From Thermococci archaeon (GTDB lineage: Archaea; Hadarchaeota; B88-G9), in NCBI GenBank assembly GCA_003660555.1, contig QMUK01000067.1:1-6348 (forward strand): a DNA stretch of 6,348 nt, given 5' to 3'. Below are positions 3,185 to 6,348 of this stretch, in pieces. A program made the position numbers and the translations under genes. The notes beneath the pieces were generated by a model, which worked only from the letters and a program-made list of their open reading frames with translations, was not told the DNA's origin and did no database searches. Numbering within the stretch: the first letter of the stretch is position 1; each line of letters begins with the position of its first letter.

Positions 3185-4150
3185 ATGGTGATTGCTTCAG
3201 TTCTAAGTTCTGAGAGGGTCCTTCTCCTCTCGAAAAAGAGTGTAAGTGAGTCAAACGCGTCCAGATGGGAAATTCTAGAGTATTCTGAGATCTCCATATT
3301 CAGAGGTGAGAAAATAGAAATAGACACGAGAGTATGGCTTTACCCTCTAGAGTTAGTGGCGAGGAATTACAACAAGAGGACCATAAAGCTCTACTTGCAT
3401 TACAACGAGGAATTCCTGAAATTCTCTAGGAAGAATCCCCATCAGATGTCTAAAGAGGAGAGGGACAACCTCTATTACCTAGTGAAGAGAGATTGCTCTG
3501 CTTCTATGCTAAACGTAGCGATAAATGCCCTGAAGTTCTACTACGGCGAAATCTTAAAGAAAAAGCTTGCTTATGAAATTATTAGACCAAAGAGAGGTAA
3601 AAGTTGCCCGTTGTTTTAACTCAAAAGGAAGTTTAAGATCCTTTCGTCCACTAACGAAGTTAAACACGGACTCATTTTAATGTTCATGTATTCCTCAGGA
3701 TTAAGTTGGTGAAGTAGTGAAGTTCAGGATCGATGACATCGATACATAGAGAGGAAGTTGATTGAAGTAAAGGGAAACAAGGACCGATACACAATCCCTT
3801 CTGAAATCACATTGAAGACTCTCATGGAATAAGTTGAGGAATACAAGCCGAGAGAATGACTGTTCCCTGGACAAAGGGAGAGGAGGCACATCACTACGAG
3901 AACTGTACAGAATCCTTGAAAGCAGTGCCGACATGAGATATGTTCAAAAGCTAGTTGACATGAAAACTTAAAAACAACGGAGATATATACTCACGTTGCA
4001 ATGAGGGATTTGAGGAAGATGAAAAGCCCATTGGATTTGATGATCATGGGGGTGAAAATTTTCATATACGCAGTAGAGCCTAGGAATAATGTGAAGTTCA
4101 CATATAATCCCAAACCAGAACGGAATGTGAACTTCGTATACTTGGAGTAG
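3185..4150 (+). pseudogene. xerA: Decayed XerA-like tyrosine recombinase
   Basis: The first frame (3185-3619) encodes the N-terminal core-binding domain (NYNKRTIKLYLHYNEEFLKF to NALKFYYGEILKKK). After that the Xer protein continues only by changing frame. A lost base near 3600 restores KLPVVLTQKEV; a shift at 3634 gives KILSSTNEVKHGLILMFMY; a shift near 3704 gives VGEVVKFRIDDID, destroying the GLRxGE catalytic Arg codon; and a shift near 3745 gives RKLIEVKGNKDRYTIPSE. Two nonsense codons follow (TAA 3830, TGA 3857) within VEEYKPRE-LFPGQ. After RTVQN (about 3912) the HxLRHxxA box is missing, then ADMRYVQKL and, in another frame, KTTEIYTHV with the nucleophilic Tyr and MRDLRKMKSPLD survive. The spacing fits Xer and shows no IntI-specific insertion. 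The first roughly 45 residues are unrecognised. The 3' limit is uncertain: Xer similarity ends near 4040, while the last frame is open to 4150. Confidence 0.9.
4093..4135. repeat. Perfect 11-bp inverted repeat (possible degenerate att hairpin)
   Basis: GAAGTTCACAT (4093-4103) and its exact complement ATGTGAACTTC (4125-4135) flank a 21-base loop. Outside the arms are GCCTAGG on the left (4078-4084) and GTAGGTG on the right (4147-4153), faintly like an attC R''/R' pair. The left arm is itself part of a near-palindrome, ATGTGAAGTTCACAT (4089-4103). It could be a decayed attC or attI, or an operator ahead of the next gene. The inverted repeat is certain; its role is not. Confidence 0.5.
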
Positions 4151-4159: not shown

Positions 4160-4980
4160 GGAGAATGGAGGTTAAGTTATGGAGAAGGCTGTTAATAAAA
4201 TGAAAAGTGAGGAAATTTATTTGCATGTGTTCATAGTAGAATCATCCTCATCCAGTGACTTTCTTGCAAAAAGATACGAAGGCGAAGTACTCCATAAATT
4301 CTTAATATGGAGGAGAATAAGATCATCTCACTATTTTGCAATAGATAAGGATTCATTCAACCGAGCAATTATTGGTCTCATAGACGATGCAATTGGAGAA
4401 GGGTTTAAGGTGGCAGGATTAAGTATTTTAAATAACAAGCCGATTCCAGCAATCCTGCCTATCATTCACATCAGCGCCTATGGAAACGAGAAAGGAATAT
4501 TCTAACAAATGGAGAGTTAGTGACTTGGGAAGACCTTGGAAATTTGCTATCTAGGCTGAATGAAACATTTAGATGGATTATATTGTCCATCTCTGCATGC
4601 AAAGGTTGGAATGCCATAAAAATGTTATTCGAGTCTAAAGATATTCCATTTAACGTCCTAATTTCAAATAAAGGAGAACCAACATGGCAGGAGACACTAA
4701 TTAGTTTTTTTCCGTTATATATCATCAGCTCGCAGAAGAATTGGATTTCTCAAAAGCGATTAATGCAGCCAGATCTGTGAGTGGTAACAATGATTTTGAA
4801 TATTTATCCATTCCAGAAATAAAAGAATTCATACAAAAACTAGCTGATGAATTGGTTAAGTACTTTGTACAACCTAATTAAGGAGAGAATAAAATGAGCA
4901 TGTCGCCTAACAGCGGACATATGGCTACGCTTCGCTCCACCCAAATTTCCTTATGGAAAACTTCATATGCCCGCAAATCG
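4148..4980 (+). mobile_element. Integron-type gene cassette 1 (CHAT-like gene plus most of attC1)
   Basis: The proposed cassette runs from the decayed core site at 4147 to the recombination point in the GTT of attC1. It contains one open frame family (4179-4881, broken) and its own R'', L'' and L' boxes. The reverse complement of the DNA around R'' (GCATGTCGCCTAAC, 4898-4911) nearly matches the proposed start, as expected of a formerly circular cassette. The left boundary is less secure than the right. Confidence 0.5.
4179..4881 (+). pseudogene. CHAT/caspase-fold-like protein interrupted by two frameshifts
   Basis: Three consecutive frames give one protein of about 230 residues. Frame 1 (4179-4505) ends in IIHISAYGNEKGIF. 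One missing base near 4501 restores LTNGELVTWEDLGNLL, continuing to IILSISACKGWNAIK and ISNKGEPTWQETLISF. A second slip in a seven-T run (4705-4711) restores VIYHQLAEELDFSKAINAAR and continues to FVQPN, stopping at 4879-4881. The pattern H-x3-[H]G-N-x-x-G, LTNG...W..L, then S-x-C, resembles a widespread bacterial family with a CHAT/clostripain-caspase-like arrangement; this is recalled from family patterns. The Cys is present, but the expected His before Gly is Tyr (TAT, 4479-4481), one base from a His codon. GGAGG at 4167-4171 supports the ATG at 4179. Sequencing error is an alternative for each frameshift, especially the T run. Confidence 0.72.
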
Positions 4981-4986
4981 TTATAC
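4905..4986 (+). other. attC1 integron-type cassette recombination site
   Basis: The boxes are in order R'' GCCTAAC (4905-4911, fits RYYYAAC), L'' GCGGACATATG (4913-4923), a loop of about 40 bases containing GCTACGCTTCGCTC and a small TTTCC/GGAAA stem (4946-4959), L' CATATGCCCGC (4964-4974), an AAATC spacer, and R' GTTATAC (4980-4986). L'' and L' pair at 10 of 11 positions. The unequal spacers (1 versus 5 bases) give the unpaired central spacer expected of a folded attC. Pairing extends outward with GCATG (4898-4902) and CATGC (4989-4993). R' departs from GTTRRRY at one position. It sits right after the stop of one gene and before the next, as cassette sites do. Confidence 0.82.
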
Positions 4987-5008
4987 GCCATGCTTTTAGA
5001 TCAAGAAT

Positions 5009-5016
5009 AAGGAGGT
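5009..5016 (+). promoter_or_regulatory. Ribosome site for the cassette 2 gene
   Basis: AAGGAGGT ends six bases before the GTG at 5023 and decides this start. The cassette therefore supplies its own translation signal within its first 40 bases. Confidence 0.65.
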
Positions 5017-5022
5017 TAGAAA

Positions 5023-6096
5023 GTGAAAGATGTATTAAATTGCATTAAAAAATATGTAGAAATTACTGAAGATGAAAAATTTATATTACATTGGAAAAAA
5101 CTGTCTGAGCGATTACTGAAAGGAATACTGGAAAGCTATATACGCCGTGAACCAGAGACAGTTAGAATTATTGAAAACATTATAAATAACATCGGGCAGT
5201 TCAATACAGAAGAACATCATAGATTCAATATTTCTACTAATTCGATTTTTATTCATGGAAATAAATCTCAGGTAGAATTTGAATATTATGGGAAAAGCAC
5301 CAAAAGAGAGCTTGGAGATATTATTTTTATCCTATCGGTCGTTTATAATGGTAGAAAGTATTTTGAAAAAATGACTATTAACCAAATAAAAAAATCAAGA
5401 AACGTTTCATGGAATTTCAATACCGATAGTGCTAGAGAGCAACTTTATTTACTTTCAAGATTTCCAGCATTTAAAGGTGCCAAAAATTCCATAATACCAA
5501 AAAAGGACTACAACCTCCCAAATTACTCTGGATGTCTAGGTTCTCATGGATTACTTTATTATCCGGGCGATTTTGCTTTAATCAGTTCAAAACAGTTGGA
5601 CGTAATTTTATCAGGAAAAAATAAGCTAGAATTAGCAAATTTGGTATTGAGTATCGTCCCCAATAACCCCTGCCTTTGTCTCCACATAGATTTTGAAGAG
5701 TGTTTTTACCTTTTACATAAGTTGATCCACTTTTATCCTCGATGTCTCAGATACTTTCCTTTTATATGCAATTTACCAATATTAGGAAATAGTTGCATAT
5801 CATATAATGCATATGATTTTTCAGACAAGTACTTGAGAGGAGTTATAGGAGAATTAATATACGCTAAAGGTTTAGGGTACAATCACCAGGCCTTCCAATT
5901 TTTGATGGATCTGCTTGAATCAATCGAAAGAAAAGGAGGAAAATATAAGAGTTTCGTCCAAAACTTTAGAAAATTCAACTATAATCCAATTGGATATGGG
6001 AAAGACAAGATTGATAAAAAAGATTACGAGTTTGATAGAGATGGAGGAGGATTAGGTATAACCCATACAATAATAGATTTGAGGGAAGGTAAATGA
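5023..6096 (+). CDS. Cassette-encoded protein of unknown function, possible PD-(D/E)XK-like nuclease
   Basis: The 357-residue product begins at GTG after a strong ribosome site and is uninterrupted, unlike its neighbour. I do not recognise a named family. Residues about 94-130 (KRELGDIIFILSVV, then MTINQIKKSRNVSW) have the layout strand-E96-x2-D99-strand-loop-strand-Q121-x-K123. This resembles the D...QxK variant of the PD-(D/E)XK fold used by Mrr-like restriction enzymes. Next comes REQLYLLSRFPAF (138-150), a helix-P-F segment, then a Cys/Tyr/Phe-rich middle (LCLHIDFEECFYLLHKLIHF, about 216-236) and a charged tail with DRDGGGLGITHTI. No signal peptide or clear membrane helix is seen. Codon use is AT-rich with many AAA, ATA and AAT codons, suggesting a foreign origin. 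A defence or DNA-processing role is inference from the motif and cassette context. Confidence 0.75.
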   Translation: MKDVLNCIKKYVEITEDEKFILHWKKLSERLLKGILESYIRREPETVRIIENIINNIGQFNTEEHHRFNISTNSIFIHGNKSQVEFEYYGKSTKRELGDIIFILSVVYNGRKYFEKMTINQIKKSRNVSWNFNTDSAREQLYLLSRFPAFKGAKNSIIPKKDYNLPNYSGCLGSHGLLYYPGDFALISSKQLDVILSGKNKLELANLVLSIVPNNPCLCLHIDFEECFYLLHKLIHFYPRCLRYFPFICNLPILGNSCISYNAYDFSDKYLRGVIGELIYAKGLGYNHQAFQFLMDLLESIERKGGKYKSFVQNFRKFNYNPIGYGKDKIDKKDYEFDRDGGGLGITHTIIDLREGK

Positions 6097-6108
6097 TAAT
6101 GGCAATAG

Positions 6109-6192
6109 CGTATACAAGCGGGTATCTGGCTTCGCTATGCTTCGCTCAAATCCTCGCTTCGCAGGATCTCAGATACGCTCGGAACGTTAAGC
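6109..6192 (+). other. attC2 integron-type cassette recombination site
   Basis: R'' CGTATAC (6109-6115, one A short of a GTATAAC form), L'' AGCGGGTATCTG (6117-6128), a loop with two GCTTCGCT copies and an inner ATCCT/AGGAT stem, L' CAGATACGCT (6170-6179), spacer CGGAAC, and R' GTTAAGC (6186-6192, fits GTTRRRY). L'' pairs with L' over ten bases, with two extra G bases on the L'' side; such extrahelical bases are characteristic of attC folding and strand choice. It starts 12 bases after the cassette 2 stop. It shares the GCTTCGCT loop words with attC1 though the rest differs, as is usual for attC sites of different cassettes. Confidence 0.78.
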
Positions 6193-6247
6193 GACATGCA
6201 GGAAAAACATAAATGGATTCCCAGTATCTAAATAAATGGTGGAAATT

Positions 6248-6348
6248 ATGAAAGCAAAAGAAGCGATTGAGGAATTCAAAAGGGAGATCAAAAAGCTGTA
6301 TGGTAACAGATTGAAGCATATTATACTCTATGGCTCTTATGCGAGAGG
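6248..6348 (+). CDS. Minimal nucleotidyltransferase (MNT), N-terminal part, cut by the window end
   Basis: Thirty-three complete residues are visible, starting MKAKEAIEEFKREIKKLYG and reaching IILYGSYARG. The helix followed by a strand and GS-x-A-R-G is the opening motif of small DNA-polymerase-beta-type nucleotidyltransferases. The downstream D-x-D is outside the window. Many such proteins are the antitoxin half of HEPN-MNT toxin-antitoxin pairs, and toxin-antitoxin genes are common integron cargo; whether a HEPN gene follows cannot be seen. GGTGG at 6238-6242 supports the ATG at 6248. It is the first gene of cassette 3, which begins at TTAAGCGACATGC (6187). Confidence 0.8.
   Translation, partial: MKAKEAIEEFKREIKKLYGNRLKHIILYGSYAR

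Follow-up and report, generated by a model that had tools for sequence, protein, structure and literature searches.

Integrons have already been published from nine archaeal phyla, including Korarchaeia (PMC9668308), and the archaeal cassettes described by Ghaly et al. (2022; PMC9668308) are like the locus reported here in several ways: both are found in archaeal metagenome-assembled genomes, are bounded by attC sites that fold on the bottom strand, and carry cargo of unknown function. Our locus differs in that its recombinase has decayed, an IntI-specific domain is unrecognisable, and only two attC sites are present on the contig. For the protein that it encodes, the natural comparison is with the Mrr-like QxK branch of the PD-(D/E)XK superfamily. 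The metal site of these enzymes has a strand-turn-strand layout, and a glutamine in place of an acidic residue marks the Mrr branch. The protein resembles this branch in having an aspartate followed about 20 residues on, in the next predicted strand, by QxK, in that nothing in its family outside the polar motif is invariant, and in the defence genes found near family members; it is unlike it in that the family, known from sequence alone, has no detectable similarity to a curated family or a solved structure, and in an invariant glutamate three residues before the aspartate, which is not the commonest PD-(D/E)XK layout. A third comparison is with ORF2 of prophage P2-EC48 (CAD54904.1), an accessory gene in the Z region of a P2-like prophage. 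It is a distant member of the same family and has all four of the conserved residues described below, whereas its identity is only 17-19% and it is annotated merely as a putative lysogenic conversion protein. P2-like phages contain a hotspot of anti-phage systems (PMC9122126).

The window—the whole stretch of DNA analysed here—is an entire contig of 6,348 bp from an archaeal bin of 1.3 Mb in 150 contigs; gene content and the small phylum prompt the tentative guess that it belongs to Korarchaeia. Its first 3.2 kb carry archaeal housekeeping genes (NAC, radical SAM, CTP-dependent riboflavin kinase, DHBP synthase and lumazine synthase), followed in order by a decayed recombinase, broken ORFs (4179-4880), attC1, the 357-codon ORF, attC2 and the start of a further ORF (Table 1). 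The broken ORFs (4179-4505 and 4520-4780, together with another frame) resemble a single protein split by frameshifts, and are probably a dead cassette gene. The 357-codon ORF is real, as the sequence-only reading had proposed: it has a GTG start with a ribosome-binding site upstream, and it exceeds the longest stop-free run (171 codons) in 400 Markov sequences of matched size and composition.

Table 1. Coordinates of features in the window.
Feature	Position	Strand	Remarks
Decayed tyrosine recombinase	3185..4025	+	Upstream of the cassettes; PF13495, 1.3e-11; frame changes and several stops
attC1	4898..4993	+	Right-hand arm GTTATACGCCATGC is part of the inserted cassette; bottom strand z -3.9 to -4.0
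Integron cassette, 1206 bp	4981..6186	+	Bounded by the G/TT exchange points of attC1 and attC2
Ribosome-binding site GGAGGT	5011..5016	+	Precedes the GTG; read from sequence
Candidate PD-(D/E)XK-like nuclease ORF	5023..6096	+	357 codons, GTG start; full-length homologues
E96-L-G-D99, presumed active site	5308..5319	+	E96 (5308-5310) and D99 (5317-5319) invariant in 13 sequences
Q121-I-K123, presumed active site	5383..5391	+	Q121 (5383-5385) and K123 (5389-5391) invariant in 13 sequences
attC2, the attC of the ORF's cassette	6101..6199	+	Right-hand arm GTTAAGCGACATGC matches the attC1 left arm

Insertion of a cassette by an integron exchanges the right-hand arms of the two attC sites involved. 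Here the attC1 left arm (GCATGTCGCCTAAC) is complementary at 13 of 14 positions to the attC2 right arm (GTTAAGCGACATGC), and GCGTATA-CAAG, the attC2 left arm, pairs with the right arm of attC1 (GTTATACGC). Because the arm partners of attC1 and attC2 are thus swapped as expected, the unit containing the ORF is an integron insertion, in which a single ORF lies between two attC sites whose core arms are complementary. Folding agrees with the term cassette, which the sequence-only reading had used: for attC1 the bottom strand gives the better fold (z -3.97, with none of 500 shuffles as good, versus -1.37 for the top strand), and the pre-insertion site rejoined from the left half of attC1 and the right half of attC2 reaches a bottom-strand z of -5.45 (0 of 500 shuffles as good), with pairing nearly continuous along the hairpin. 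The attC2 site folds weakly on both strands (z -0.89 and -0.58); in the excised form the cassette's own attC is weak too (z -1.47). The left core of attC2 (6108-6119) is one A short, GCGTATA-C against its partner arm GCGTATAAC. Since its own attC folds weakly and has lost one base from the left core, the cassette may be excised poorly. DNA searches with both attC sites detected no further copies of either in the genome.

The recombinase upstream is oriented in the same direction as the cassettes and matches TIGR02249 in fragments with 4 stops, ending in ...TTEIYTHVAMRDLRKMKSPLD; the damage is too great to decide if it was once a genuine integron integrase. A complete integron, with an intact IntI bearing the additional domain beside the array, was not found, the adjacent recombinase being decayed. 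A recombinase-like locus on contig C90 and an intact one on contig C78 are other recombinases; the former (L013:3300-4130), in the same genome, is also decayed and likewise ends in TTQIYTHVANRDIKKL. At the other end of the window, the start of an ORF (6248-6348, MKAKEAIEEFKREIKKLYGNRLKHIILYGSYARG), truncated by the contig end, resembles on reading a minimal nucleotidyltransferase. Proteins of this type frequently belong to toxin-antitoxin pairs.

The 357-residue protein has no significant match in Pfam, NCBIfam, PADLOC, PHROGs or the PDB sequences, in keeping with its earlier description as otherwise unrecognised; in particular, no described PD-(D/E)XK family was matched by profile (Pfam, NCBIfam, PADLOC and PDB sequences), and no sequence link to a solved PD-(D/E)XK structure was found among the PDB sequences. 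It does belong to a family, which we assembled from the window protein, two close archaeal homologues, ten distant members—from other archaea, haloarchaeal plasmids and E. coli prophages—and a broken copy from Thioclava. One close homologue (L002:2646-3749) is 59% identical over its full length and was the only one found in a scan of genome contigs. The other (L049:1279-2394) is 49-51% identical end to end, so that its membership needs no argument from the motif.

The distant members were reached less directly. The first were found with a 53-residue query composed to resemble an E-L-x-D...QxK...W...Q-L protein, which already contained ELAD and QAK and matched a Haloprofundus plasmid protein (E 0.02) and, weakly, ORF2 of P2-EC48 (E 0.7); because the query held the motif, we treat these matches as a lead and not as evidence, and conservation of the motif is partly selected for through these two early relatives. 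Later searches used real sequences, and recovered a Halorubrum protein with the Haloprofundus protein (2e-17) as well as an E. coli homologue. A five-row profile then matched three archaeal proteins (9e-5 to 1e-4), and a core profile four more archaeal members (E 1e-10 to 8e-24), including the close homologue L049. When a profile of seven members made without the window protein (A8) was compared with the window pair, the match had an E-value of 2.5e-6 (88.8%) across residues 68-154. Comparisons of the distant members by BLASTP of single pairs or by two-row profiles were not significant; only the pooled family profile is.

The family is patchily distributed: among the genomes around its archaeal relatives, 7 of 395 carry a member. 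No match to the 357-residue protein was found by tblastn against plasmids and phages, and scans of viral contigs yielded nothing beyond the known P2-EC48 copy. Weak core matches in Paraburkholderia (on the opposite strand of an annotated gene) and in a Pseudomonas phage were discounted as coincidental, and weak whole-genome matches (L004/L021, L022-L029 and L040-L042, of which L004, L040 and L042 were read) were treated likewise. The Thioclava copy, on an alphaproteobacterial plasmid (L045:5794-6734), is split by a frameshift and has VgrG genes within a few hundred bases; it retains CELADLL...IQAK, and was found with a motif-bearing consensus query.

An E-x2-D ... QxK arrangement had been pointed out in the sequence-only reading, and its residues are located at E96, D99, Q121 and K123. 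In an alignment of 13 sequences (16-59% identical to the window protein) these are the sole invariant columns of 357, a result partly biased by the queries; the next most conserved, L143, is shared by 12 of the 13. An apparent departure in one member (L037), whose motif read DQMRV, was a MAFFT misalignment, and later alignments show LQAK. With the four sequences descending from motif queries left out, the nine archaeal sequences kept have ten invariant positions: E96, G98, D99, Q121, K123, Q140, L172, C217, G341 and G345. Since the four named residues are invariant across these alignments, their importance was correctly predicted, and that the only fully conserved positions are four polar residues is typical of catalysis rather than structure.

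The surroundings of these residues, as read from the sequence, point the same way: D99 opens a predicted strand (DIIFILSVV), which is followed by a turn (YNGRK) and a strand, YFEKMTINQIKK, that ends in QIK. The D ... (D/E/Q)xK motif conserved in the superfamily is matched by D99, Q121 and K123, subject to the partial query bias. An AlphaFold model made with two sequences had a pLDDT of 33, which lends no support to the alpha-beta-beta-beta-alpha-beta core fold of the superfamily. If the protein is such an enzyme, E96 and D99, where one strand begins, and Q121-x-K123 in the strand after it would bind Mg2+ and cleave nucleic acid, Q121 taking the place of the customary acidic residue as glutamine does in Mrr-like enzymes; E96 might substitute for the helix-borne glutamate of the superfamily, and the helical N-terminus and the C-terminal half, which ends in a conserved GG-x-GI strand, may choose the substrate.

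The genes around family members were compared for links with anti-phage defence. Recognised defence genes lie beside relatives in three different archaeal neighbourhoods. One family gene (L053:5167-6276) is divergent from an OLD/AriA-like ATPase-nuclease (1.5e-58) amid glycerol-metabolism-like genes, and the same pairing with an AAA-ATPase is seen in a second genome (L039). The homologue with about 50% identity (in this context L056:8021-9136) is transcribed divergently from a Ppl-type ATPase/PHP pair (2.5e-36). The third (L055:6297-7244) belongs to a set of three with a KwaB-like gene (7e-7) and a 245-residue protein of unknown type, flanked by a type IIG restriction enzyme-methyltransferase and by AbiEi (8e-109) and AbiEii (2e-136) with an HKD+Snf2 helicase. 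The suggestion of defence neighbours thus holds for relatives (OLD/AriA-, Ppl-, type IIG restriction-modification-, AbiE- and KwaB-like) and fails for the window copy, which no intact defence gene adjoins in the window; its neighbours are the cassette boundaries and decayed genes. The P2-EC48 copy lies in the Z region of a P2 prophage, and the E. coli copies are carried as cargo on the border of a prophage and within a tRNA-Leu island.

The pair of KwaB-like and family genes recurs at three further loci (L050, L051 and L052; likeness to L055 judged by eye); L050 and L051 also have a gene of the 245-residue type, and L052 has an AbiEi-like ORF. This archaeal set (L055:5177-8072, L050:246-3030, L051:179-3039 and L052:248-2313) combines a KwaB-like gene (DUF4868) with the nuclease-like family gene, to which L055, L050 and L051 add a coiled protein of about 245 residues, and could be a new defence system of several genes. 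In L002 (3760-4235), an attC-like core, GCTTATAACAAGC, lies downstream of the close homologue, and after it comes a 145-residue ORF with FDIYVF...FVELKK that may encode a further small PD-(D/E)XK-like protein.

Taken together, we consider it probable that this single-gene cassette encodes a metal-dependent nuclease of PD-(D/E)XK-like type, from a family that is undescribed and probably defence-related. Because the gene travels alone in its cassette and the neighbours of its relatives differ, the protein probably acts without a fixed partner, and its most likely role would be in defence, cutting invading DNA either alone or with loosely associated partners, its gene being dispersed by mobile elements. 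A genuine nuclease of this kind could instead serve DNA repair or the upkeep of mobile elements, by processing the elements or excluding competitors, and the many family copies on mobile DNA—cassette, prophages and haloarchaeal plasmids—are compatible with this; it is nevertheless unlikely given the defence genes in each of three archaeal neighbourhoods and a distribution too patchy for a housekeeping repair gene. That the resemblance to nucleases is coincidental, with E, D, Q and K having structural roles in an unrelated fold such as a binding protein, we regard as quite unlikely. No nuclease was matched by sequence or structure, and the AlphaFold model is unusable, which speaks for coincidence, whereas the full conservation of four polar residues alone among 357 and the fit of their spacing and of the strand-turn-strand pattern to D...QxK argue against it.

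Toxin-antitoxin genes are frequently carried by cassettes, and the next one here opens with the nucleotidyltransferase-like ORF at 6248. The protein might accordingly be pictured as a toxin that cleaves host nucleic acid or kills the cell when triggered (abortive infection), its antitoxin or regulator being encoded elsewhere; with no partner gene inside the cassette and no small partner gene adjacent to the close relative L049, this is improbable. The fall in GC from 0.44-0.48 to 0.29-0.36 past about 4.5 kb, and the fact that attC sites are best known from bacteria, could indicate that bacterial DNA was misjoined to an archaeal contig in the metagenome bin. This is highly improbable: the protein's closest homologues come from archaea, one being encoded in a genome that is a single contig, the contig analysed here runs via the decayed recombinase into archaeal genes (NAC and CTP-dependent riboflavin kinase), and integrons are on record from nine archaeal phyla (PMC9668308).

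The reading of the protein as a probable defence-related nuclease allows a broader, tentative proposal, which we put forward as possible only: that this unnamed family, found in hyperthermophile-like archaea, haloarchaeal plasmids and enterobacterial prophages, is a single-gene antiviral enzyme moved as a cassette between lineages by archaeal integrons. If this is right, the family would be a cross-domain candidate for an antiviral nuclease absent from Pfam-A, NCBIfam and PADLOC-DB, and the locus a concrete example of an archaeal integron with defence-type cargo. The archaeal integron would then be a platform for exchanging defence genes.
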